Origin: a virus
Strand: one strand, 5' to 3'
IMG/VR virus record: IMGVR_UViG_3300025151_000240
Location: 1-26,965 of that record
Length of the DNA stretch: 26,965 nt
Part shown: one piece after another, positions 1,344-16,939 of the stretch
Numbering within the stretch: the stretch's first letter is position 1
How the letters are laid out: each line of letters starts with the position of its first letter
Notes under the pieces: generated by a model
Seen by the model: the letters and a program-made list of their open reading frames with translations, nothing else
What the model was told of the DNA's origin: nothing
Databases searched by the model: none
Position numbers and translations under genes: made by a program

Positions 1344-2417
1344 TTAAAATTTATACAAGGCTACAGAATCTACTAAAATTTTATTTGCATAAAAATTATC
1401 ATTTTTAGTGTAGATAGTATAGTTTGGTTGATTACCTTCTATCTTTTCTATAGTGTTAACTGTTTCTAAACTACCGTTATGGGTTATCATCTCATCACCA
1501 ATCTTAAGCCCAGCTACTTTCATTTTATAATTTTCTAAAGTAGCAATAGGATCTATTGAGGCTAGTTCACCATTTTTTAAGTACACTGGGTGTTCAGAGG
1601 TCATTATAAGGTTATTTATTTTATAATCATTATTTCTTATTACTTTCACTGTACCGAGAATAGGTTGAATCTCTTTTTGTTTAGTATGTAAGTTATAGGT
1701 ATCTACTTTATCCCCAACCTTAAGCTTACTTATATGCATTTCTCCCATTGGGGTACTTATAAGCATACTGTCGTGAACACAACATATATCACATCCACCT
1801 CCACTTCCTATTCCACTTCCTACAGAACCAGAATGTGGGTAACCTTGGAACTGTAATGAAGAGGATACCTGAGTACTAGGGTCAGTAATTGTTCCTGTAA
1901 TCGATTCATCGAATCCCCAAGGTATAGAAGCAGAAATAAAATCATTGAAGGTACTTCCAGAAAAAGTCATATATTGATCTCCTACTGATTGTGATACTGC
2001 TCCTTCTATAGAGCTGTAATGTTTAGAACCTGTTTTGTACATGTAGAAATTACCAGCATAATAATCAACATAAGGAATAGAACCTGTAACAGAAAAACTT
2101 CCAATACCTAAACATGCAATTTTATCAGTAATCTCTCCGTCTGCAGCTATTTTAAATACGTATGTAGGCGCACCGCTGTCTCCTACTGCTCTAAATCCAT
2201 AATATTCATTTTCTCCGTCCCATTCAGTAGTGATATTAGCGTCAGTAAAAGCGTGATCTCCTAGGCTTATTTGTGACGGAGTTGCATAAAGTGGGTTATC
2301 TATATAGATACGAAGTGCAGTTCCGAACTCTGTGGTAAGATTACAGGCTGTAATAGGGTTGGTAAGCCCTCCTCCCTCAATTCTGTTTACTTCAAATTCC
2401 GACGAGAATGATGGCAT
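1344..2417 (-). CDS. Tail-surface protein with C-terminal Hint (intein/hedgehog-like) domain
   Basis: This 357-residue protein has two parts. Residues 1 to about 195 are a Ser/Gly/Thr-rich beta-type virion region in the style of its neighbours. A flexible SGSVGSGIGSGGG linker follows, then a Hint domain from about residue 209: CDICCVHDSMLISTP, the block A continuation KLKVGDKV (231-238), the block B TSEHPVYL (273-280) and a second KIGDEMITH (305-313). C213 (or C212) is in the place of the splicing nucleophile. The C-terminus ends ANKILVDSVALYKF and lacks the His-Asn and downstream nucleophile of true inteins. Hint domains catalyse N-S acyl shifts, and without the Asn the expected outcome is N-terminal cleavage or ester transfer rather than splicing. 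It lies directly downstream of the fibre gene. Confidence 0.85.
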   Translation of the reverse strand: MPSFSSEFEVNRIEGGGLTNPITACNLTTEFGTALRIYIDNPLYATPSQISLGDHAFTDANITTEWDGENEYYGFRAVGDSGAPTYVFKIAADGEITDKIACLGIGSFSVTGSIPYVDYYAGNFYMYKTGSKHYSSIEGAVSQSVGDQYMTFSGSTFNDFISASIPWGFDESITGTITDPSTQVSSSLQFQGYPHSGSVGSGIGSGGGCDICCVHDSMLISTPMGEMHISKLKVGDKVDTYNLHTKQKEIQPILGTVKVIRNNDYKINNLIMTSEHPVYLKNGELASIDPIATLENYKMKVAGLKIGDEMITHNGSLETVNTIEKIEGNQPNYTIYTKNDNFYANKILVDSVALYKF

Positions 2418-2423
2418 GACTTA

Positions 2424-5400
2424 TTATTTTAATTTTTCTTCTATATCAGATAATCTTTTGTCGAGTTCTAAAATAGCTTTGTGTATGTGAGCTACGATCG
2501 GTTTAGTGTTCATTCCTAAATACCCATCCTGTCTTACATGAACTGCATATGGTAATGGTTCTTGAACCTCTTGTGCTATAAATCCAGCATCTTTTTCACC
2601 TTGTAGTTCATATTCATAAGATACGAATTTTTTTAACGTTTCCAAACCTTCTTTTATAGGGGTAATATTTTCTTTTAACTCTCTATCAGAAGTTGTAATA
2701 AAGTTATTAGCAGTAACGTTACCTGTAAATAATCCATGAGATCCTGAAACGTTACCAGTTGTATAGAGGCCGCCTGAAGATTCAAATACACCTCCTAGAG
2801 AGCCTGTAAAGTAATAGCTGAATCTTGTATGTATACCGCCATTTCCATCATAGTCTCTTAAAAATAACGTTTGTGTTGGGTCCCCTTGAAAGTCAAAATA
2901 AAAGTCGTTATTGTTAGAGTGTAGCCTTAGTCCTTTGTCAGCAGTAGCAGCTGAGATTTCGTTTCCTAAAAATAAGTTAGCTTGACCTGATTGACCTACA
3001 ACAAGTCCTTGTACACCTGTAGCAGTTGTCATTCTTAAGTTATTAGACCCTGAAATCGTATCAGCATCAGTAAATATTGCTATCTGTTGATTTGCTGGTG
3101 TCCCTGTTTTATTTACATATCCAGATAGTCTAGATGTTACGTGATCATATACTGCGTTTCCGTTTGGAATATCAGTTGATCCATTAGTAACAGATGTTGT
3201 AGAATTCTTATTGTATATAGTTCCTAGTCCTAAATCAGATCTTACTTCAGAATAGCTTCTACCTTGTAGTCCATTAGCAGTAAATTTAGCGTAATCGTTA
3301 TCAGCTGCATCAGCATCGTCGACCTCTAATAAATTATCATTAGCGATTCCTATTGCTTGGTGAGCTAGAACGTTAGTTCCAATTACTAAGCCTAAGTCAG
3401 ATCTTACTTGTGAATAACTTCTACCCTCTAATCCATTGGCAGTAAATTTAGCATAATCATTATCAGCTGCATCAGCATCATCTACCTCAAGCAAGTTATC
3501 ATCAGCAATACCTATTGTTTGCTGTGCTAGAACATCTGTTCCGATTTCTAGATCTAATGCTGCTCTCATTTCAGCTGCAGTAAGAGCTTTTAAAGTATCA
3601 CCATCGTGGAATCTAGCAAATTCATTTGCATTTACAGTACCTGTTGTATTTACAAATCCACTTACGTCTATATCAACCTTAGAAGCAGAGATTACATACC
3701 CTTCCCAGTAGGCGTTACTAATTTGATAGCCATGCATATCTAATCCTCCGCTTATAGCGACAGAACCAGTAAACTCATGCTTATCGGTTGATTGGTCTCC
3801 AAATGTATTTGAGCCGGTGGTAAGTAGAATAGATGAGCTTACAATATCAGAATGTAGATATGAAAAAGAAGCTGAAGTCGCAGTAAATGTGCTTGCTGTT
3901 ATATGCCCAAGAACGTTTAATCCTGCAAATGTAGGTGTGTCGGATGTACCTATTGGTAAATCAACAAAAGTATTAAAAGCAGAGCCTATTCCTGTAAAGG
4001 TTAGACGTCCGTTAGATGTAGTATATCCAACATTTGAAACATAGTTATTGTCATTGTTGTCATCTATAGCTATCGAATGAGTTGCTATATAAGTATATAG
4101 TTTTATAGTATCTCCATGTATAGAGCTAGAGCGGTAGTTAAGATCAGCTGAGTCTGCTTTTACAGCATGTGAAGCTGAGGTAGCAGTAGTTGCACTATTA
4201 GCTACGTGAGCTAGGTCAGCAAATTCTGCATGAGATGCAGATGCTACTTCAGTTAAAGATATGTCTACTTCAGCATCTGGTGCTCCATTAATTCTAGATA
4301 ATGTAAGAGTGTTTCCTGAGTATGATACACCGTCGAAGCCATTAAAACAAGTTATTATATCAAATGAACCGCTGATTATATTACCTGCTAAGTCGGCATA
4401 TTCTGCATGTGAAGCAGAAGGTGTGCTATCAGCTAGGTCTGCAAATTCGGCATGTGAGGCTGTATCAACAGAGGTAATAGATATACCGCCATCAAAAGCT
4501 GACCCTACTCCTGTAAATGTTATATCATGTCCATTGGTTACTTGTACATTTGAAATATAGTCTCTTTGGTTTGCATCATCTATAGCTAAAGAATGAGTTG
4601 CTGTTCCTGTAAATAGTTTTATAGTATCTCCACTAATCGAAGAAGAGTTATAGTATGAACTTGTAACAGAATTTATTGCTTCGAATCTAACGTTACCTGA
4701 ACCGGACACTTCTGTTTTCAGAGCATAAGAAGAAGTAGCAGCTTCTATAGTATTTAACCTTAATTTAACTGAACCTGATTCTAATAGTAAACCATCAACT
4801 CTATCATCTGTTCCTCCACCAACAACGTAATCCAAATTAAGACCATTTTCTGTATGTAGTCTTAACGTATCAGCATTTGTTTTAGATCCAGAAATAATAC
4901 TATTATTAATTCCTGCACCTAGGTTAGTTCTAATAGCTGATTTAGATGCCGATGAAATCGAAGAAGCATTTTCAAAATAAGTTATAATAGAGGAAGCTGA
5001 GTGTATTCCTGCTGCTAAATCTACTATAGCGGCAGCAGATAGAGAGCCTGATATATCTGTTGCAATTTGAGCTGAAGATGATAGTACTCCATATCCAGAA
5101 GAGGATAAAAAGCCATACTCTGTAATTTGAGCTGAAGAGGATATCACACCGCCTGGTAGTGAGCCAGTTGCTACTGTCACGGTAAAGCTAGAAGCATCTC
5201 CTTTTACAAACGTTAGTACGTTGTTTTCTGCACTAGCACCAGTTACTGCATTACCTACAAATGATGCTGTTTCAGATAATACTTCAGTTACTATTTCATG
5301 AGAAGAAGATAGTGCGTAAGAAGCTGTAACAGCATAAGAGGAGCTTGCAACGTTGTTAATGGTAAAGGTATGAGTTTTGTCTGCTATACTTCCTGTAGAG

Positions 5401-5546
5401 GTAAAAGCAAATAATGAAACAGTAGGGCCAGAAACTGAGGATGATTGAAATGCTTGAGATGCACTTACTTGTAGATCAGAGAAGTTATTATCTACTTCAT
5501 CATACGACATTGATCTTCCTAATCTAAGTCTTAAATTTATTGCCAT
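2424..5546 (-). CDS. Long tail fibre with S74 intramolecular chaperone domain
   Basis: A 1040-residue protein. The N-terminus (LRLRLGRSMSYDEVDNNF) resembles the fibre-attachment start of many phage fibres. The long Ser/Ala/Thr-rich shaft carries degenerate copies of SASHAEFADLA and a tandem pair of 54-residue repeats (3225-3386 and 3387-3548). The last ~88 residues, from SDRELKENI at about residue 953 through GFIAQEV to a terminal helix (LDKRLSDIEEKLK), match the peptidase S74 chaperone. In that family the domain trimerises the fibre and then cuts itself off just before the conserved Ser, using a Ser-Lys pair. The role is receptor recognition at the virion surface. Six bases separate it from the Hint gene. 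The receptor is unknown. Confidence 0.92.
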   Translation of the reverse strand: MAINLRLRLGRSMSYDEVDNNFSDLQVSASQAFQSSSVSGPTVSLFAFTSTGSIADKTHTFTINNVASSSYAVTASYALSSSHEIVTEVLSETASFVGNAVTGASAENNVLTFVKGDASSFTVTVATGSLPGGVISSSAQITEYGFLSSSGYGVLSSSAQIATDISGSLSAAAIVDLAAGIHSASSIITYFENASSISSASKSAIRTNLGAGINNSIISGSKTNADTLRLHTENGLNLDYVVGGGTDDRVDGLLLESGSVKLRLNTIEAATSSYALKTEVSGSGNVRFEAINSVTSSYYNSSSISGDTIKLFTGTATHSLAIDDANQRDYISNVQVTNGHDITFTGVGSAFDGGISITSVDTASHAEFADLADSTPSASHAEYADLAGNIISGSFDIITCFNGFDGVSYSGNTLTLSRINGAPDAEVDISLTEVASASHAEFADLAHVANSATTATSASHAVKADSADLNYRSSSIHGDTIKLYTYIATHSIAIDDNNDNNYVSNVGYTTSNGRLTFTGIGSAFNTFVDLPIGTSDTPTFAGLNVLGHITASTFTATSASFSYLHSDIVSSSILLTTGSNTFGDQSTDKHEFTGSVAISGGLDMHGYQISNAYWEGYVISASKVDIDVSGFVNTTGTVNANEFARFHDGDTLKALTAAEMRAALDLEIGTDVLAQQTIGIADDNLLEVDDADAADNDYAKFTANGLEGRSYSQVRSDLGLVIGTNVLAHQAIGIANDNLLEVDDADAADNDYAKFTANGLQGRSYSEVRSDLGLGTIYNKNSTTSVTNGSTDIPNGNAVYDHVTSRLSGYVNKTGTPANQQIAIFTDADTISGSNNLRMTTATGVQGLVVGQSGQANLFLGNEISAATADKGLRLHSNNNDFYFDFQGDPTQTLFLRDYDGNGGIHTRFSYYFTGSLGGVFESSGGLYTTGNVSGSHGLFTGNVTANNFITTSDRELKENITPIKEGLETLKKFVSYEYELQGEKDAGFIAQEVQEPLPYAVHVRQDGYLGMNTKPIVAHIHKAILELDKRLSDIEEKLK
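3225..3548 (-). repeat. Two tandem 162-base (54-residue) repeats in the fibre shaft
   Basis: Two adjacent in-frame units each encode a 54-residue module. Each begins IGT(D/N)VLA, contains the identical stretch NLLEVDDADAADNDYAKF and ends with RSYS(Q/E)VRSDLGL. The units differ at only a few residues and at several synonymous bases, so the duplication is not brand new. Copy-number change by recombination could alter fibre length. Confidence 0.9.
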
Positions 5547-5547
5547 T

Positions 5548-6588
5548 TTATATATCTAATTTTACCTGTATAGTTAATTCTGTGTCTGCTGGTTTTTGTA
5601 GCGGTTGACTTAGTTTTCCTATAGCTATTAATTCGTTTGCATCATTATATAATCCTACAGAAGTAATGTATGGTTGAAATGCAGAACCAGTTACATTATT
5701 TTTTAATCTGTTGTTACTTCCGGTTAAAGCAGTTGGATTAAGAGTATGGTTGAATTCATAATCTGATACTTTAACGTGGTAGTTATATGTATAAATAGGT
5801 TGATTAGATTTCCATCGTATAACATCTAATCTTGGATCATTAATATAGTATGTAGCCACGTCTACGTCAGTAAGTATTATTATACCGTGACTGTATATTA
5901 TGTTTCCAATAAATGAATGGTTAGTTTCAATTAATTTTAAATTACCTTCTCCGTCGTCGACTATAGCTTCTAATCCTCCTAAGTATCCATCTGTTCCTAT
6001 ATCTGCTACAGCTTCAATATAACCCACCTCTACATATTCATCTGTTACATAAGGTTCTCTAATAATTGAAGTGTTAAAGCGAGGAATAATTTTAAAAGTT
6101 CCTGGTTCTATATGTGTGCCTATAATATCTCTTGGTAGAGAATAAACAAGTGCTCTATTTCCTAAAGTTCTTGAACCTGACTGGTTATTGCTTAAATCTT
6201 CTATAAAAGATAAAGACGATTGTTCATAGTTGTCAAATAATTTACCAGAAGAGGTAGAGTTTGTAGTTACACTTGAACCGGACAATGCCTGAGTATAGAA
6301 GCTTGGTTCTATTATTGAACCGTTGGTATTATTGTAATTAGAATAATAAAGTTGATTTATACTTCTGTAAGTAAGTTTTCTAAGTTGATTACCATTAAAG
6401 TCTATAGATACACCTGGTGAGTAGTTTCTATCGTTGTCCACAGATTCGTTAACTACTGAACTAGTAAAAGCTTCTAATACAGTTATACCGTAGTTATTAA
6501 GGTTACTACCGGTAACTGCCCAGTCTTTTTTAGCTACATACGTGGTGACAAACGCATCTGTCGATTTTAATTTTTTGAACGCACTCAT
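5548..6588 (-). CDS. Tail-surface structural protein, paralogue of the adjacent gene
   Basis: A 346-residue virion-type protein rich in Ser, Thr, Asn and Tyr, with no catalytic motif. Its C-terminal ~100 residues align with those of the next gene upstream. The shared track runs from a (F/L)N(H/Y)(T/S)xNPxxxTGS region through YITSVGLYNDANELIAIGKL to a final QPLQK...TELTIQVKLDI. The pair therefore arose by duplication. It lies one base from the fibre gene and three bases from its paralogue. A baseplate-periphery or fibre-connector role is inferred from position only. Confidence 0.85.
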   Translation of the reverse strand: MSAFKKLKSTDAFVTTYVAKKDWAVTGSNLNNYGITVLEAFTSSVVNESVDNDRNYSPGVSIDFNGNQLRKLTYRSINQLYYSNYNNTNGSIIEPSFYTQALSGSSVTTNSTSSGKLFDNYEQSSLSFIEDLSNNQSGSRTLGNRALVYSLPRDIIGTHIEPGTFKIIPRFNTSIIREPYVTDEYVEVGYIEAVADIGTDGYLGGLEAIVDDGEGNLKLIETNHSFIGNIIYSHGIIILTDVDVATYYINDPRLDVIRWKSNQPIYTYNYHVKVSDYEFNHTLNPTALTGSNNRLKNNVTGSAFQPYITSVGLYNDANELIAIGKLSQPLQKPADTELTIQVKLDI

Positions 6589-9552: not shown

Positions 9553-12500
9553 TTAAAAATCGTCGCAATCGAAATAAGAGTCAACAGTACCATTACCGTT
9601 TATAAGTATTACATTTTCCGGTTCAGATGTGTCTACCATTCTATAGTGTATACCGTAATTAATATTAGTTAAACCTGAATTCGTATAAGTCACCTGACCT
9701 GGGTCTGGAAGTAGTTGTAAGCTTCTTAACTTTTGGAAATATAATGTAACTGTAAAGTCTGGTATCTGCATTGGATCACAGAAGCTTCCAGCTACGTCAT
9801 CTCCAGTTGCTTCAGCAGTAGTTGCGTTAAAGCTTTGTACTCCGAATCCTGAAGTTGTAGTTGCGCTAATAGTATCTCCGTAGGCTGTACATACGGATGA
9901 AGAAGCAAATGCTCTATAGTAGTAAGTACTACCAGCTGTAAGTCCTGTAAAGTTATGTTCAAATGCACCTAAACCTTGACCTGGTGTTGTTGCAACTATT
10001 GATTCAGTAACTCCATTAGTAATACTTCCTGAGGCATTACTTCTATCTACTACCGCTGATGAAGTAAGTGAGAATATAAACCCTCTTCCTAGTAGTATAT
10101 GAGATCCAGAGCTATTAACTTTAGCTTGAGCTCTTAATACTGAAGTTGTAATGTTATTAGCAGCTAGAGAGCTTACACTTGGACAAGTAATACTTTCTTG
10201 GATTACTGCACCGTATACATCTCCACAGTCAGGTGTTTGTGCATATGCTCTTATATACCAACTTCCTGTTTGCAGGTTATTAAGTACCATACTAAAAGGC
10301 GAGGAAGAAGAGGCAAAGAAACTACTAGTATCTGATGGTCTAGTTGGAGTAGTATTAGTTTGAGAATATACAAAACCTCTAGCAGCATTTTCAGAATAAG
10401 TAACGCTTCCAGTCGCACCAATACTTAAGCCATCAGCAAGTATATTTGTTCCGTCTGTAGATACAGTAGGACATACTATTAATTCAACTAAAGCAGGCTT
10501 GTAGTCTACTTGAGAAGCATTTTTATATTTCCATTCGTTTTCGTCATTAAGTTCTCCATTACTAACTTTAAATTCACTTCCACTTAATTCACCGTCAAAT
10601 CTTGCTCTTTCTTTTAAGTGGTATGTATATGGAGCAAGTCCGTCTGGTGTTACTATACTATGTGTATAGCTAGCAGTTAGTGGTATTTCAAACTCTTTAT
10701 CGTAAAAGTTGGTATAAGATCCACCTTGACTACCTGAGCTAAAAGCAGTATCTATTGAGGCTGTAAACTGGTCGTGTGAACCGCTTACGCTTACTTGCTT
10801 TATTTTATTTCTTTCTAATATATGAGGTTTTATAATAATACCTGTATCAATATTTGATCTAGCAGGTACAAAGTCTTTTATCATTTTAAAGAGTACGTTG
10901 TCGTAAAATTTAAGTACTCTTACAAATTCTCCATAATGATGCGGAGATGATTGTGTGATAACTCGATTAGATTCTGATACTAGTAATTCGTAGCTACCAG
11001 ATTGTGCTTGTCCTGGGTCACCTATATAGTTGTCTATATCGAATCCTGATACTAACTGCCCTCTTATATACTCGTTTAGAGGATAAGTAGGAGAGTATCC
11101 AACCTCTACTGTATGTATATCATCTGAATATTTACTATCTCTCTGCATTACAGAAGTATACTTTGATAAAGTATTTCCCGTAGTAATACTTCCTGTGTTA
11201 TCAGTTTTTACTTTACCCGCAGAAGAAGTATACTCTAGTAAAGGTCCGTAATTATGGCTACCGGAAGTATTTTCTCCTCCAATAGTTCTTACATAAAGAC
11301 CATTTATTGACCCAACTGCTCCTTGTAGGTTATTATCAGTAGGAACTCCAAATGAAGATATTAAAGCTTTTAATCCCCTCTCAGTTCCTTTAGTCTTAAG
11401 TAGGTAAGGTAGGTTATGGTATAATCTCTTATGTATTTCGTTCCTATATTTTTCTATAGAATCAATACTATTAGATGCTGAGGTAATCTCTTTTGTCCAG
11501 TCGCTTCCAGTTTGGTATATTTCTCCGGTAAAAATTTTAAATAAATCTTCTGATGATCTAGTATTATTGTATATTTTGACTCCAAAATTTTTAAGAGTAT
11601 CTTGTACTAAGTCTTTTGAAATTCCGTATTCAAGCCTATTATCATTATCATACTTGCTAGCTAAAGCTTTACCGTAAATCCATATATTATCAAAATGTTG
11701 ACCTAGCATGTTTATAAAAACACTGTAGTTTACACTGTCAGGGTCTTCTTTGAGATACTCTGGGATAGTATTTAAAAGCTGTGAGTAATTAGAGGTATCG
11801 TAGTTACTAGCTGAGATTATTTGTGCATTATAAAACGAGCCGGTTGCACTACCTGTAGCATTTATATAAGGTTTGTTGCCTGGTGCTTGTTTAGGCCAAG
11901 AAGTAGAGCTTGATTCGTAATATAAATGTTTATCGTAGTGGTCAAAGTTATCTAGTATATTATTTATCTTGTCTTTCCAGAAGTTTTCACTTCCTGTCAT
12001 ATACCCAGAATATCCGTTCTCTATTATTGCTGATGATTTAGATACATTTACCTGATAGCTTTCTATAAGATTAAGTTTATATTGAAAGTTTTTAAGTCTT
12101 TCTTCAGCTGAGCTAAATTGTATAAAATTAGAGTAGTCTGAATAATCTATACTGAGATTAATACCTTTTTGAGAAAAAGCTGAGTTTAGTTCTCTATAGG
12201 TATTATTAGTAGGGAAAGAAAATAAGTCATTATAACTTAAGTACGATGTCTGTGCAGGAGCATCTTCTGGTTTCTCTATATTAAAATTAGGTCCCTTTAA
12301 GTATGGTATTTCTACTTCATCTACTATAGTTGATGTTTCGATAGCAAATGCAACAGTATCAGAGATTACTCTATCTACTGTAACTATGTCTTTTAATTTA
12401 TATGCTTCTGGTAACGGTTCATAGAGCTTTACTATAACAGAATTGAAGTCTCTATATTTTTGTATATCTATATTTATTCCTATAAATAAATCGTTGTTCT

Positions 12501-12999
12501 TGAGATTAAGCCTAAATTCATTAAAAAATGATGTACTTGCTAAATCTTTTTTTACTTTATCTGTATAACGTATAACGTCTTCATCAGTTATTTGATTTGT
12601 AAGAAGTCTTATTTCAGTTCTATCTTGAGATATCTCTTCAATAAAAAACTCTCCTCCTTTTTGATTTTCACTGTATAAATTATCTAAAAAATTATAAACA
12701 AGATTTATACCTCCATAAATATACCCTAGCTTTTTAGAGTCTGATTCTGGATCTATATCGAGAGAAGAAGCACCTGTAGTACCGGCAGTTTCACTGCCTT
12801 GAAGAAATTTTTCACCTCTATAATCATAAACCGAATCTATTAATGTTTCGTCATCTCCATATACATGTAGCTCTATCTTATGTTGGAATGCATCAAAAGT
12901 TTCGTTTACTTTAAAAGAGTCTACTACTTTAATATCTTCTTCTGAAAAGTTTTCCAGTCCGATAGGGTTTATTGGTGATATTGTATACTGTATAGCCAT
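9553..12999 (-). CDS. Baseplate/tail protein with gpI-like motif and FN3-like C-terminal modules
   Basis: A 1148-residue protein, close in size to T4 gp7. The first ~830 residues are a mixed alpha/beta scaffold. Around residues 525-555 it has YHNLPYLLKTKGTERGLKAL followed by SSFGVP, a motif typical of phage tail proteins of the P2 gpI type and their large relatives. From about 840 to 1050 come two similar ~100-residue modules that start with CPTV or CPSV, contain ARGFVYS or GRGFIFS, and end with a LxxGSxYYxRA(Y/F)A strand. This is a fibronectin-III-like pattern. The protein is probably a wedge or peripheral baseplate component with surface-exposed adhesive modules. The exact T4 counterpart is uncertain. 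Confidence 0.85.
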   Translation of the reverse strand: MAIQYTISPINPIGLENFSEEDIKVVDSFKVNETFDAFQHKIELHVYGDDETLIDSVYDYRGEKFLQGSETAGTTGASSLDIDPESDSKKLGYIYGGINLVYNFLDNLYSENQKGGEFFIEEISQDRTEIRLLTNQITDEDVIRYTDKVKKDLASTSFFNEFRLNLKNNDLFIGINIDIQKYRDFNSVIVKLYEPLPEAYKLKDIVTVDRVISDTVAFAIETSTIVDEVEIPYLKGPNFNIEKPEDAPAQTSYLSYNDLFSFPTNNTYRELNSAFSQKGINLSIDYSDYSNFIQFSSAEERLKNFQYKLNLIESYQVNVSKSSAIIENGYSGYMTGSENFWKDKINNILDNFDHYDKHLYYESSSTSWPKQAPGNKPYINATGSATGSFYNAQIISASNYDTSNYSQLLNTIPEYLKEDPDSVNYSVFINMLGQHFDNIWIYGKALASKYDNDNRLEYGISKDLVQDTLKNFGVKIYNNTRSSEDLFKIFTGEIYQTGSDWTKEITSASNSIDSIEKYRNEIHKRLYHNLPYLLKTKGTERGLKALISSFGVPTDNNLQGAVGSINGLYVRTIGGENTSGSHNYGPLLEYTSSAGKVKTDNTGSITTGNTLSKYTSVMQRDSKYSDDIHTVEVGYSPTYPLNEYIRGQLVSGFDIDNYIGDPGQAQSGSYELLVSESNRVITQSSPHHYGEFVRVLKFYDNVLFKMIKDFVPARSNIDTGIIIKPHILERNKIKQVSVSGSHDQFTASIDTAFSSGSQGGSYTNFYDKEFEIPLTASYTHSIVTPDGLAPYTYHLKERARFDGELSGSEFKVSNGELNDENEWKYKNASQVDYKPALVELIVCPTVSTDGTNILADGLSIGATGSVTYSENAARGFVYSQTNTTPTRPSDTSSFFASSSSPFSMVLNNLQTGSWYIRAYAQTPDCGDVYGAVIQESITCPSVSSLAANNITTSVLRAQAKVNSSGSHILLGRGFIFSLTSSAVVDRSNASGSITNGVTESIVATTPGQGLGAFEHNFTGLTAGSTYYYRAFASSSVCTAYGDTISATTTSGFGVQSFNATTAEATGDDVAGSFCDPMQIPDFTVTLYFQKLRSLQLLPDPGQVTYTNSGLTNINYGIHYRMVDTSEPENVILINGNGTVDSYFDCDDF

Positions 13000-14711: not shown

Positions 14712-16532
14712 TTATAAGTTTATTACTCTACCTTTTATATCTTTTTTTGGAAACTTTACTTCAAAAATACATGGATCATATGACGGATATACTACGTTGT
14801 TTTTAGTAGCACCTAATACATCGTACCCGTATTGAGAATAGTTACCTCCGTTAAGGTTTTTAATTTCTATTTTTTGTACTGTTTGTACTCCTTTTACTTT
14901 GTCTAATAAAGTAAATAGTTCTGATATATTTATAGGTTGATTTATATTACGTTTCGATATTTCAAAATAATCTTGAAGTTCAAGGTTACAGTTAAGTAAG
15001 ACGTCTCTACCAGAGTAGCTTGGTCTTACTATAATTTCATAGTTTACTTCTACGTTTACTATAAATGCATCTTTTATATTTATACTATCTGATATTAGCA
15101 TAAACTCAGCTAAATATTTTTTAAGGTTTTCTTTTAATGTTTTTGTTCCTGTAGTAAGTTTTTTATCATTATCGTAAGCTAGAACATAAAGTGAAAGAGC
15201 TAAAGGATTATTATCTACTATAGAGTCGTTCTTTTTAGTATTAGTAAGTTGATCTTGAGTTACATATGCTTTTGCTATACTACCAAATTTTGACGGTAAT
15301 GATAATGCTCTTACTGTGTAGTCTTGTAGAGTTACTGCTCTGTTTTGTTCATTAAAAGCTCTAAGAGCGTTTTCTCTCAACTCTTCTACTGTATCTCCAT
15401 CTCTTCCGCCTGCTGCTGGTAATTCGTTGTTAAATGTTAAACTACCAAGGTTAGTACCAGAGTATACAACAGAGGTAAGAGTATTTGCTGGAACGTTGGC
15501 ACTTATTCCTCCTCCTTGTACGTAACTTGCAGTTAACACGGTATTAGAAGGAGCGATTCCGTATGATTTACTATAGGTAAAGTTTGTTGGGTCATAAGCT
15601 GATGTTACAGAACCAGAGCCATTATAATTGAGAGACCCTTGGTTGCTTAAATTACCTATACTTGTAGCATCAGGTAAAATAATACTATCATCGTCATTCG
15701 ATATACCTGAGCCGAATTGTATGTCTAAATCACCATTAGATCTAAATCTTGTTACAAATCTTCTTGGTACTTTCTTTAATGCTAATGAATAAGGTACGTT
15801 ACCTGAATCAGATGAACTGTTAGTTTCGTCTAAGAAAATAGTATCTTGGCCTAAAAATGGTACTTCAAAATACTCGTTACCGTCACTATCTGTAATGCTT
15901 AGTACCTGTACAATATTACTATCAGAAAGAGTAACTGTTTTAAATTTATCAGCAGTACCTATTGTAAAATACTCTGTTTTTATTTTTCCAGATATTGCTT
16001 TAACATTCTTTGTTAATTTATATGTTTCAGGTTCATTAGCTGCTGTTATAGATTCTACTACTATTTCAGTAGGGTTATAAGAGCTACTAAAGCTAAAGTC
16101 TAGTGGTTCTGGAATAAAGAAACTAGTTTGGCTACTATCTGAAGATACTATGGTTGCATTAGCGTTTATTTTAGCAGCTTGGCTAAAATCTGGAATATAA
16201 CTTCCTCCTGATGCTGATATAATTTGTTCTACTTTTATTATAGCTTCTGAGGTTCCTGTTACTCTTGGTTTATACCCCATCATATACGCTAAGTTAAAAA
16301 GATTTTTTGGGTCTTTAGCGTGGGTAAGAAATGTTTCTTGAAGTTGTGAGTCTTGGTAAAAAGATAATACATCTCCTACATAAGAGGCCATTTCTATAAA
16401 CATCATTCCAGGTGAGGTAGGAGAGAAGTCGTTATATGTATCAGGAAAGTAATTTTTAGCAAACTCTATTAGCTGACTTCTAAAGTCGTCAAATTCTCTG
16501 TTTATATATTTTAGGTCTCTAGTTTGTGCCAT
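14712..16532 (-). CDS. Baseplate wedge protein, gp6 / J-like
   Basis: A 606-residue protein (T4 gp6 has 660). The N-terminus matches the gp6-like pattern: RDLKYINREFDDFRSQLIEF, then NYFPDTYNDFSPTSPGMMF, then ASYVGDVLSFYQDSQLQETF. Around residues 370-390 it carries GGRDGDTVEELRENALRAF, the signature of the baseplate J superfamily. Gp6 dimers link wedges into the ring surrounding the hub. Its ATG overlaps the stop of gp25 (TAATG), and the gp25-gp6 order is conserved in contractile-tail systems. This is one of the firmest assignments in the window. Confidence 0.95.
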   Translation of the reverse strand: MAQTRDLKYINREFDDFRSQLIEFAKNYFPDTYNDFSPTSPGMMFIEMASYVGDVLSFYQDSQLQETFLTHAKDPKNLFNLAYMMGYKPRVTGTSEAIIKVEQIISASGGSYIPDFSQAAKINANATIVSSDSSQTSFFIPEPLDFSFSSSYNPTEIVVESITAANEPETYKLTKNVKAISGKIKTEYFTIGTADKFKTVTLSDSNIVQVLSITDSDGNEYFEVPFLGQDTIFLDETNSSSDSGNVPYSLALKKVPRRFVTRFRSNGDLDIQFGSGISNDDDSIILPDATSIGNLSNQGSLNYNGSGSVTSAYDPTNFTYSKSYGIAPSNTVLTASYVQGGGISANVPANTLTSVVYSGTNLGSLTFNNELPAAGGRDGDTVEELRENALRAFNEQNRAVTLQDYTVRALSLPSKFGSIAKAYVTQDQLTNTKKNDSIVDNNPLALSLYVLAYDNDKKLTTGTKTLKENLKKYLAEFMLISDSINIKDAFIVNVEVNYEIIVRPSYSGRDVLLNCNLELQDYFEISKRNINQPINISELFTLLDKVKGVQTVQKIEIKNLNGGNYSQYGYDVLGATKNNVVYPSYDPCIFEVKFPKKDIKGRVINL

Positions 16533-16939
16533 TATTCTATATTAATTAATACTTCGTCTTCTATATTCTGATCCGCTATAGCATATCTTAGAAAAAAGCT
16601 TACTAAATTTGTATCAGGGTCGCTTGTCACTTCTACTTTTGTAGGTTTTATATTAGGAAAAAATGTTTTTATAGAAAACGAAATTCTTTCTTTAATGTTT
16701 TCCAAATCTTCTTGATTTATATTACTAAATAGTAAATCTCTTATACCTGCTCCGAAAGTAGGATTAAGAGGTCTTTCGCCGGTATTAGTCAATAGGTAGT
16801 TTATTAAATTTACTTTAATAGCATCTTTAGTTTGATATGTTGAATTAAATACCGATCCTGCAGAAAAGGGTAGGTCTACTCCTACTGCTTTTCGAGGCTG
16901 TCTATCTAAAGGGTTTATTTTTTTAGCTTCTATTGCCAT
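16532..16939 (-). CDS. Baseplate wedge protein gp25 (lysozyme-like family)
   Basis: A 135-residue protein (T4 gp25 has 132). The conserved core TGERPLNPTFGAGIRDLL (53-70) is the family signature, preceded by a helix over an NLINYLLT segment and followed by the strand region IKPTKVEVTSDP. Gp25 links the wedge to the sheath and seeds sheath polymerisation. Despite the old family name it is not expected to be a lysozyme. Its start overlaps the stop of the upstream gene by one base, and its stop overlaps the gp6 start. Confidence 0.95.
   Translation of the reverse strand: MAIEAKKINPLDRQPRKAVGVDLPFSAGSVFNSTYQTKDAIKVNLINYLLTNTGERPLNPTFGAGIRDLLFSNINQEDLENIKERISFSIKTFFPNIKPTKVEVTSDPDTNLVSFFLRYAIADQNIEDEVLINIE

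Follow-up and report, generated by a model that had tools for sequence, protein, structure and literature searches.

An Asp-Ser-type Hint domain at the end of a predicted phage tail-region protein, a candidate for self-release

A-type BILs are defined by a conserved C-terminal His-Asn, and B-type BILs, in which the C-terminal motif is absent, still undergo N-terminal cleavage (PMC7765530). Hedgehog proteins use the acyl shift alone (PMC7664689), while BIL2 of Tetrahymena BUBL1 was reported to form an isopeptide bond with Lys (PMC8616854). Hint-bearing phage proteins are already named as such in databases, and intein domains appear in the annotation of some tail proteins; no study of Hint domains in phage virion proteins was found in the open-access literature.

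The Hint described here was found in the window, i.e., the whole 26,965-nt stretch of the viral record IMGVR_UViG_3300025151_000240, in an intact ORF with an ATG start at 1344-2417 on the minus strand, on which all gene features given below also lie. The encoded protein of 357 amino acids consists of an N-domain (residues 1-203; 1809-2417), a Gly/Ser/Cys linker comprising the SGGGCDIC region with C209 and C212 (residues 204-212; 1782-1808), and a C-terminal Hint domain (residues 213-351; 1365-1781). Its cysteines are at residues 25, 102, 209, 212, and 213. C213 (1779-1781) is the predicted nucleophile of an N-S acyl shift, with C212-C213 as the scissile bond and C212 as the predicted C-terminus of the mature protein. 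Further into the domain, alignment places H215 (1773-1775) and the block B motif T273-S-E-H276, followed by Pro (1590-1601). The protein ends with K346-ILV-D350-S351-VALYKF, so that D350-S351 (1365-1370) stand where inteins have His-Asn, and the tail VALYKF with its stop codon (1344-1364) leaves no C-extein. The initial annotation had described a C-terminal Hint domain behind a Gly/Ser linker, a nucleophile-site C213 beside C212, a TxxH motif at T273-H276, and an end, ILVDSVALYKF, with neither His-Asn nor a downstream extein. All of this held: Pfam, a profile of sister Hints and an AlphaFold model agree on the domain, it is C213, not C212, that falls on residue 1, and the chain continues for only six residues beyond D350-S351. 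A Cys four residues ahead of the catalytic Cys is present in the window (CDICC, residues 209-213; 1779-1793) as well as in L085 (CQDFC) and L082 (CADNC), and a Cys preceding the catalytic one could serve in its redox or metal control.

The Hint identity of residues 213-351 is confirmed well above chance. Pfam Hint_2 matches residues 212-287 (E 4.9e-6), scoring 31.2 bits against a curated cut-off of 28.4 with neighbours in frame counted, and a profile of six sister Hints scores the window Hint at 118 bits. The AlphaFold model of the Hint, first built from an alignment of 34 viral Hints, was confident (pLDDT 88.2, pTM 0.84) and matched solved Hint structures in Foldseek with E down to 9.6e-12. 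In total, 58 PDB chains matched at E ≤ 0.001, and the best 50 of these 58 are inteins, BILs, or Hedgehog. The best match among those listed was BIL2 of Tetrahymena BUBL1 (VIA; Z 23.2, rmsd 1.6 over 144 residues), and further solved matches included mini-inteins, a bacterial BIL, and Hedgehog. The domain thus has the horseshoe all-beta fold of the Hint superfamily together with the block A Cys and the block B TxxH, and the structural comparison with Hint folds that the initial annotation had named as a check recovered that fold. In a second model, for which the alignment register was set by the sister Hints described below, C213 coincides with residue 1 of inteins and with C258 of Hedgehog, and the terminal Asn is matched by S351. 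C212, which the first Hint alignment had suggested as Cys1, was ruled out once the sisters fixed the register. The PHROG names "DNA helicase" and "nucleotide kinase" obtained for the Hint part probably reflect intein-bearing families or weak matches, and an AXH match that overlaps the Hint was set aside as cross-matching, as it recurs on other phage Hints.

Compared with the described systems, the window Hint differs from class 1 splicing inteins in lacking both the terminal His-Asn (D350-S351 instead) and a C-extein with Cys, Ser, or Thr at +1, since V352 comes next and the chain ends six residues after S351. It also lacks the C-terminal His-Asn conserved in A-type BILs. Like B-type BILs, it keeps the intein motifs except the C-terminal one, a likeness by description alone that speaks for working in the same way, although B-type BILs are known from hypervariable bacterial proteins and the window Hint is part of a phage tail-region protein. 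BIL2 of BUBL1 (6y75/6tmm) has the closest solved fold; however, it shares only about 19% identity with the window Hint, bears a terminal Asn (construct C1A-N143A), and is flanked by ubiquitin-like domains. The Hedgehog Hog/Hint domain (1at0) matches in fold (Z 17.5 over 127 residues), with C258 on C213, but the six residues past S351 leave no room for a sterol-recognition region. By likeness to B-type BILs and Hedgehog, the window Hint is most likely N-cleaving.

Searching viral contigs for the pattern Y-A-N-x-[IV]-L-V-D-S returned 11 stretches, of which one is a near-copy of the window's and six are C-terminal Hints ending in NFYAN-x-[IV]LVDSE[IV] and a stop, one in each of the marine viral contigs L202, L203, L207, L208, L210, and L211. 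These sisters are 37-44% identical to the window Hint over 141 aa, compared with at most 32% for any other Hint examined, and in a tree computed without the last four columns, so that Asp-Ser was left out, all seven grouped together with a support of 0.994. The Asp-Ser invariance of the sisters is itself built into the pattern, which demanded this ending. Outside the pattern, N341-F342 and H215 are each present in 7/7 Hints and the E-[IV]-stop tail in 6/6 sisters; the Cys, Thr, and His of the first step are invariant in all seven members of this DS clade. H215, by comparison, occurs in about 1% of HN-type viral Hints. The sisters share C-[IV]-H, TxxH, and the NFYAN-x-[IV]LVDS stretch near the C-terminus with the window Hint; they differ in their tail, E-[IV] rather than VALYKF, and in their N-parts, which have no detectable relation to that of the window protein. 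Throughout the clade, [DS]-[MH] takes the place of the GT motif after Cys1, and block F has Thr (6/7) or Ala where Asn is usual, so changes to the active site may not be confined to the C-terminal pair.

DS-clade Hints are under purifying selection: in 5/5 sister pairs the Hint has a lower dN/dS than the attached part (0.11-0.33 vs. 0.30-0.68), with dS high in most pairs. For the window and L207, dS is 1.43 and dN/dS 0.37; selection on the window's own Hint is weakly probed by such comparisons because its gene has no close non-identical relative. As judged from the sequences, the missing His-Asn marks the whole DS clade and not the window gene alone, and since six other marine virus contigs share the altered ending, it looks like a maintained variant rather than an accident. 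The clade constitutes a defined active-site change that predicts N-cleavage without C-cleavage. No member was found in cultured phages or genome contigs. Viral-contig scans using the window protein or the Hint alone as a single query recovered only a 99.9%-identical contig, a scan with the Hint of L116 recovered only L116 itself, an alignment of five distant Hints offered no stretch suitable as a query, and tblastn with the whole window protein found no cultured phage; with the Hint alone and E up to 10, there was a weak match leading to Yersinia phage fHe-Yen9-02. The open-access literature yielded no description of a DS subclass with a rebuilt active site.

The N-domain has homologues in 12 further viral loci, with identities of 62% (L023), 53% (L093), 44% (L094-L099), and 45-46% (L015 and L100-L103). 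The L023 homologue, which has no Hint, stops at ...HSGSIGSGITDGPF, the L093 homologue at ...HSGSVGSGIGE, and those of L094-L099 at ...GFTGSGMGSE, where the window protein reads ...HSGSVGSGIG-SGGGCDIC/CVHD across the same boundary (slash, scissile bond). The homologues of L015 and L100-L103 continue past the N-domain into an unrelated part, which in L015 is C-terminal and comprises ~210 aa. Because homologues without the Hint exist, several of them ending almost exactly where it starts, the Hint is an optional appendage. Jumbo phages provide a parallel, in which a collagen-like tail protein with a C-terminal Hint is present in fHe-Yen9-02 and AD1, and the homologue of this protein in Dickeya phage JA29 (324 aa) ends at the Hint boundary. 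No Pfam family matched the N-domain, nor was there a Pfam match to a ubiquitin-like domain, the BUBL feature, in this part of the protein, whose model is of low confidence at residues 104-213. Its position in the tail run and a partly confident model speak for a beta-type virion region in the N-part.

In the window, the virion gene run comprises baseplate wedge homologues (14712-16939), a large tail-region protein (9553-12999), a fibre with a C-terminal Peptidase_S74 chaperone (2424-5546; E 2.6e-11), the Hint gene, and a SegE-type GIY-YIG gene (865-1341). The Hint gene thus directly follows the S74 fibre gene, as first noted. In L023, the homologue without a Hint is likewise flanked by the S74 fibre before it and the SegE gene after it; accordingly, neither the fibre adjacency as a sign of co-function with the Hint nor a link between the SegE endonuclease gene and the Hint was retained. 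The large tail-region protein of the window has no C-terminal Hint, but its homologues in L029, L030, and L035 carry one, and in other viruses related to that of the window the Hint ends other proteins (L060, L082, L085). By two proteins of the window's virion run, Flavobacterium phages of the immuto group are the nearest cultured relatives, and we infer from this that the virus is most likely a Bacteroidota myovirus.

The reading we favour, with a probability of roughly 0.55, is that of a minor tail or fibre-tip protein whose Hint releases itself. Once folded, the Hint would convert the C212-C213 peptide bond into a thioester on C213, assisted by T273 and H276. Water or another small nucleophile would then resolve the thioester, whereupon the Hint (residues 213-357) would depart, leaving a protein of ~212 aa that is near the Hint-less homologues in length. 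Asn cyclisation and splicing would not take place, as the protein has D350-S351 instead of His-Asn and lacks a C-extein. By known Hint chemistry, retention of the Cys, Thr, and His together with loss of the Asn-cyclisation pair favours a thioester followed by release or transfer of the N-side over splicing, in line with the initial proposal that autocleavage or transfer fits this protein and splicing does not. Splicing with a C-extein starting at Ser or a later residue could be argued from S351, a hydroxyl residue near the end; however, S351 occupies the site of the terminal Asn rather than +1, it is followed by V352 in the window and by E in the sisters, and the chain runs on for no more than 2-6 residues, making this the least probable reading of all. 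Release is preferred over transfer because it would yield a protein similar to the homologues that naturally have no Hint, although the predicted cleaved form keeps 8-9 residues that these do not have, which counts against release.

Transfer is the main novel rival, since BIL2, the closest solved fold, makes isopeptide bonds. An amine or hydroxyl on another virion protein or on the host surface would attack the C213 thioester, so that the N-part becomes covalently attached. In Hedgehog the acceptor is cholesterol, and BIL2 with its ubiquitin-like domains forms an isopeptide bond to Lys. The best structural match is this Lys isopeptide former (Z 23.2; PMC8616854), and the conserved Asp at the site of the penultimate His, together with the invariant H215, could activate an acceptor. 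On the other hand, a shared fold says nothing on function, BIL2 itself bears a terminal Asn (construct C1A-N143A), and neither an acceptor nor a sterol-binding or partner domain is identifiable, so that we regard transfer as rather unlikely. Somewhat less likely again is a dedicated transacylase function of the DS subclass as a whole, in which the rebuilt active site (His-Asn to Asp-Ser, a new His two residues past the Cys, block F Asn to Thr) would covalently fix tail proteins to a further virion component or to the surface of the host. If transfer rather than hydrolysis were true, phages would own a covalent protein-attachment system in their tails. The loss of His-Asn and the altered GT motif could also point to an unreactive Hint that is retained as a terminal module of the tail protein, be it a folded cap or a module for oligomerisation or receptor binding, and homologues do swap C-terminal modules, as in L015 with its unrelated part. 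A purely structural role has no evident need for the Cys, Thr, and His that are invariant across the DS clade, and we consider it doubtful, if slightly less so than transfer. The many block A positions at which the domain differs from HN-type viral Hints might raise the suspicion that a splicing intein or BIL has degenerated here and is in the course of being lost. The monophyly of the DS clade (0.994), its low dN/dS, and the conservation, outside the search pattern, of N341-F342 in 7/7 members and of the E-[IV]-stop tail in 6/6 sisters make such decay very improbable.

More broadly, we examined 103 non-redundant full-length Hints from viral loci. His-Asn ends 34 of the C-terminal Hints and is missing from four, and it is present in 64/65 internal Hints. 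His-Asn is followed by C, S, or T in only 3/34 C-terminal and 3/64 internal cases; with His-Asn kept and a +1 nucleophile rare, most viral Hints resemble A-type BILs. Besides the window copy, the C-terminal Hints lacking His-Asn are those that close arrays, for example in L176, L177, and L199, and these end in VLVSDE. Tail-protein C-terminal Hints are common in related phages, usually with His-Asn and without a downstream nucleophile. Those of Alexandravirus AD1, Yersinia phage fHe-Yen9-02, Erwinia phages Y3/Alexandra, L030, L085, and L200 resemble the window Hint in their Cys1, TxxH, and extreme C-terminal position, but, unlike it, end in His-Asn and a short tail. C-terminal Hints are a recurrent appendage in phages, occurring on tail, fibre, and baseplate-hub proteins, and homologues with and without the Hint form pairs.

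Several other arrangements were observed. Tandem Hint arrays, each in one virion-type ORF, occur in L128 (1571-7084), L126 (2-6565), L125, L138, L129, L187, and L182, with up to seven Hints head to tail (L128) and junctions of the type HN-K-CFIAGT, mostly without a +1 nucleophile. The last array Hint of L176, L177, L198, and L199 shows a separate loss of His-Asn (VLVSDES), and the close relative L187 keeps LAHNESDT. In phage NCTB (L004), a separate second Hint-like protein of 153 aa (5467-5928) lies directly behind the Hint-bearing tail protein. L200 (3395-4486) and L197 (3386-4480) combine a baseplate hub N-domain (in L200, Pfam Phage_phiJL001_Gp84_N, E 1.9e-5) with a Gly run and then a C-terminal Hint, and in L118 (2583-5675) two Hints are followed by an S74-like stretch (SDARLKRNIEL) within one protein.
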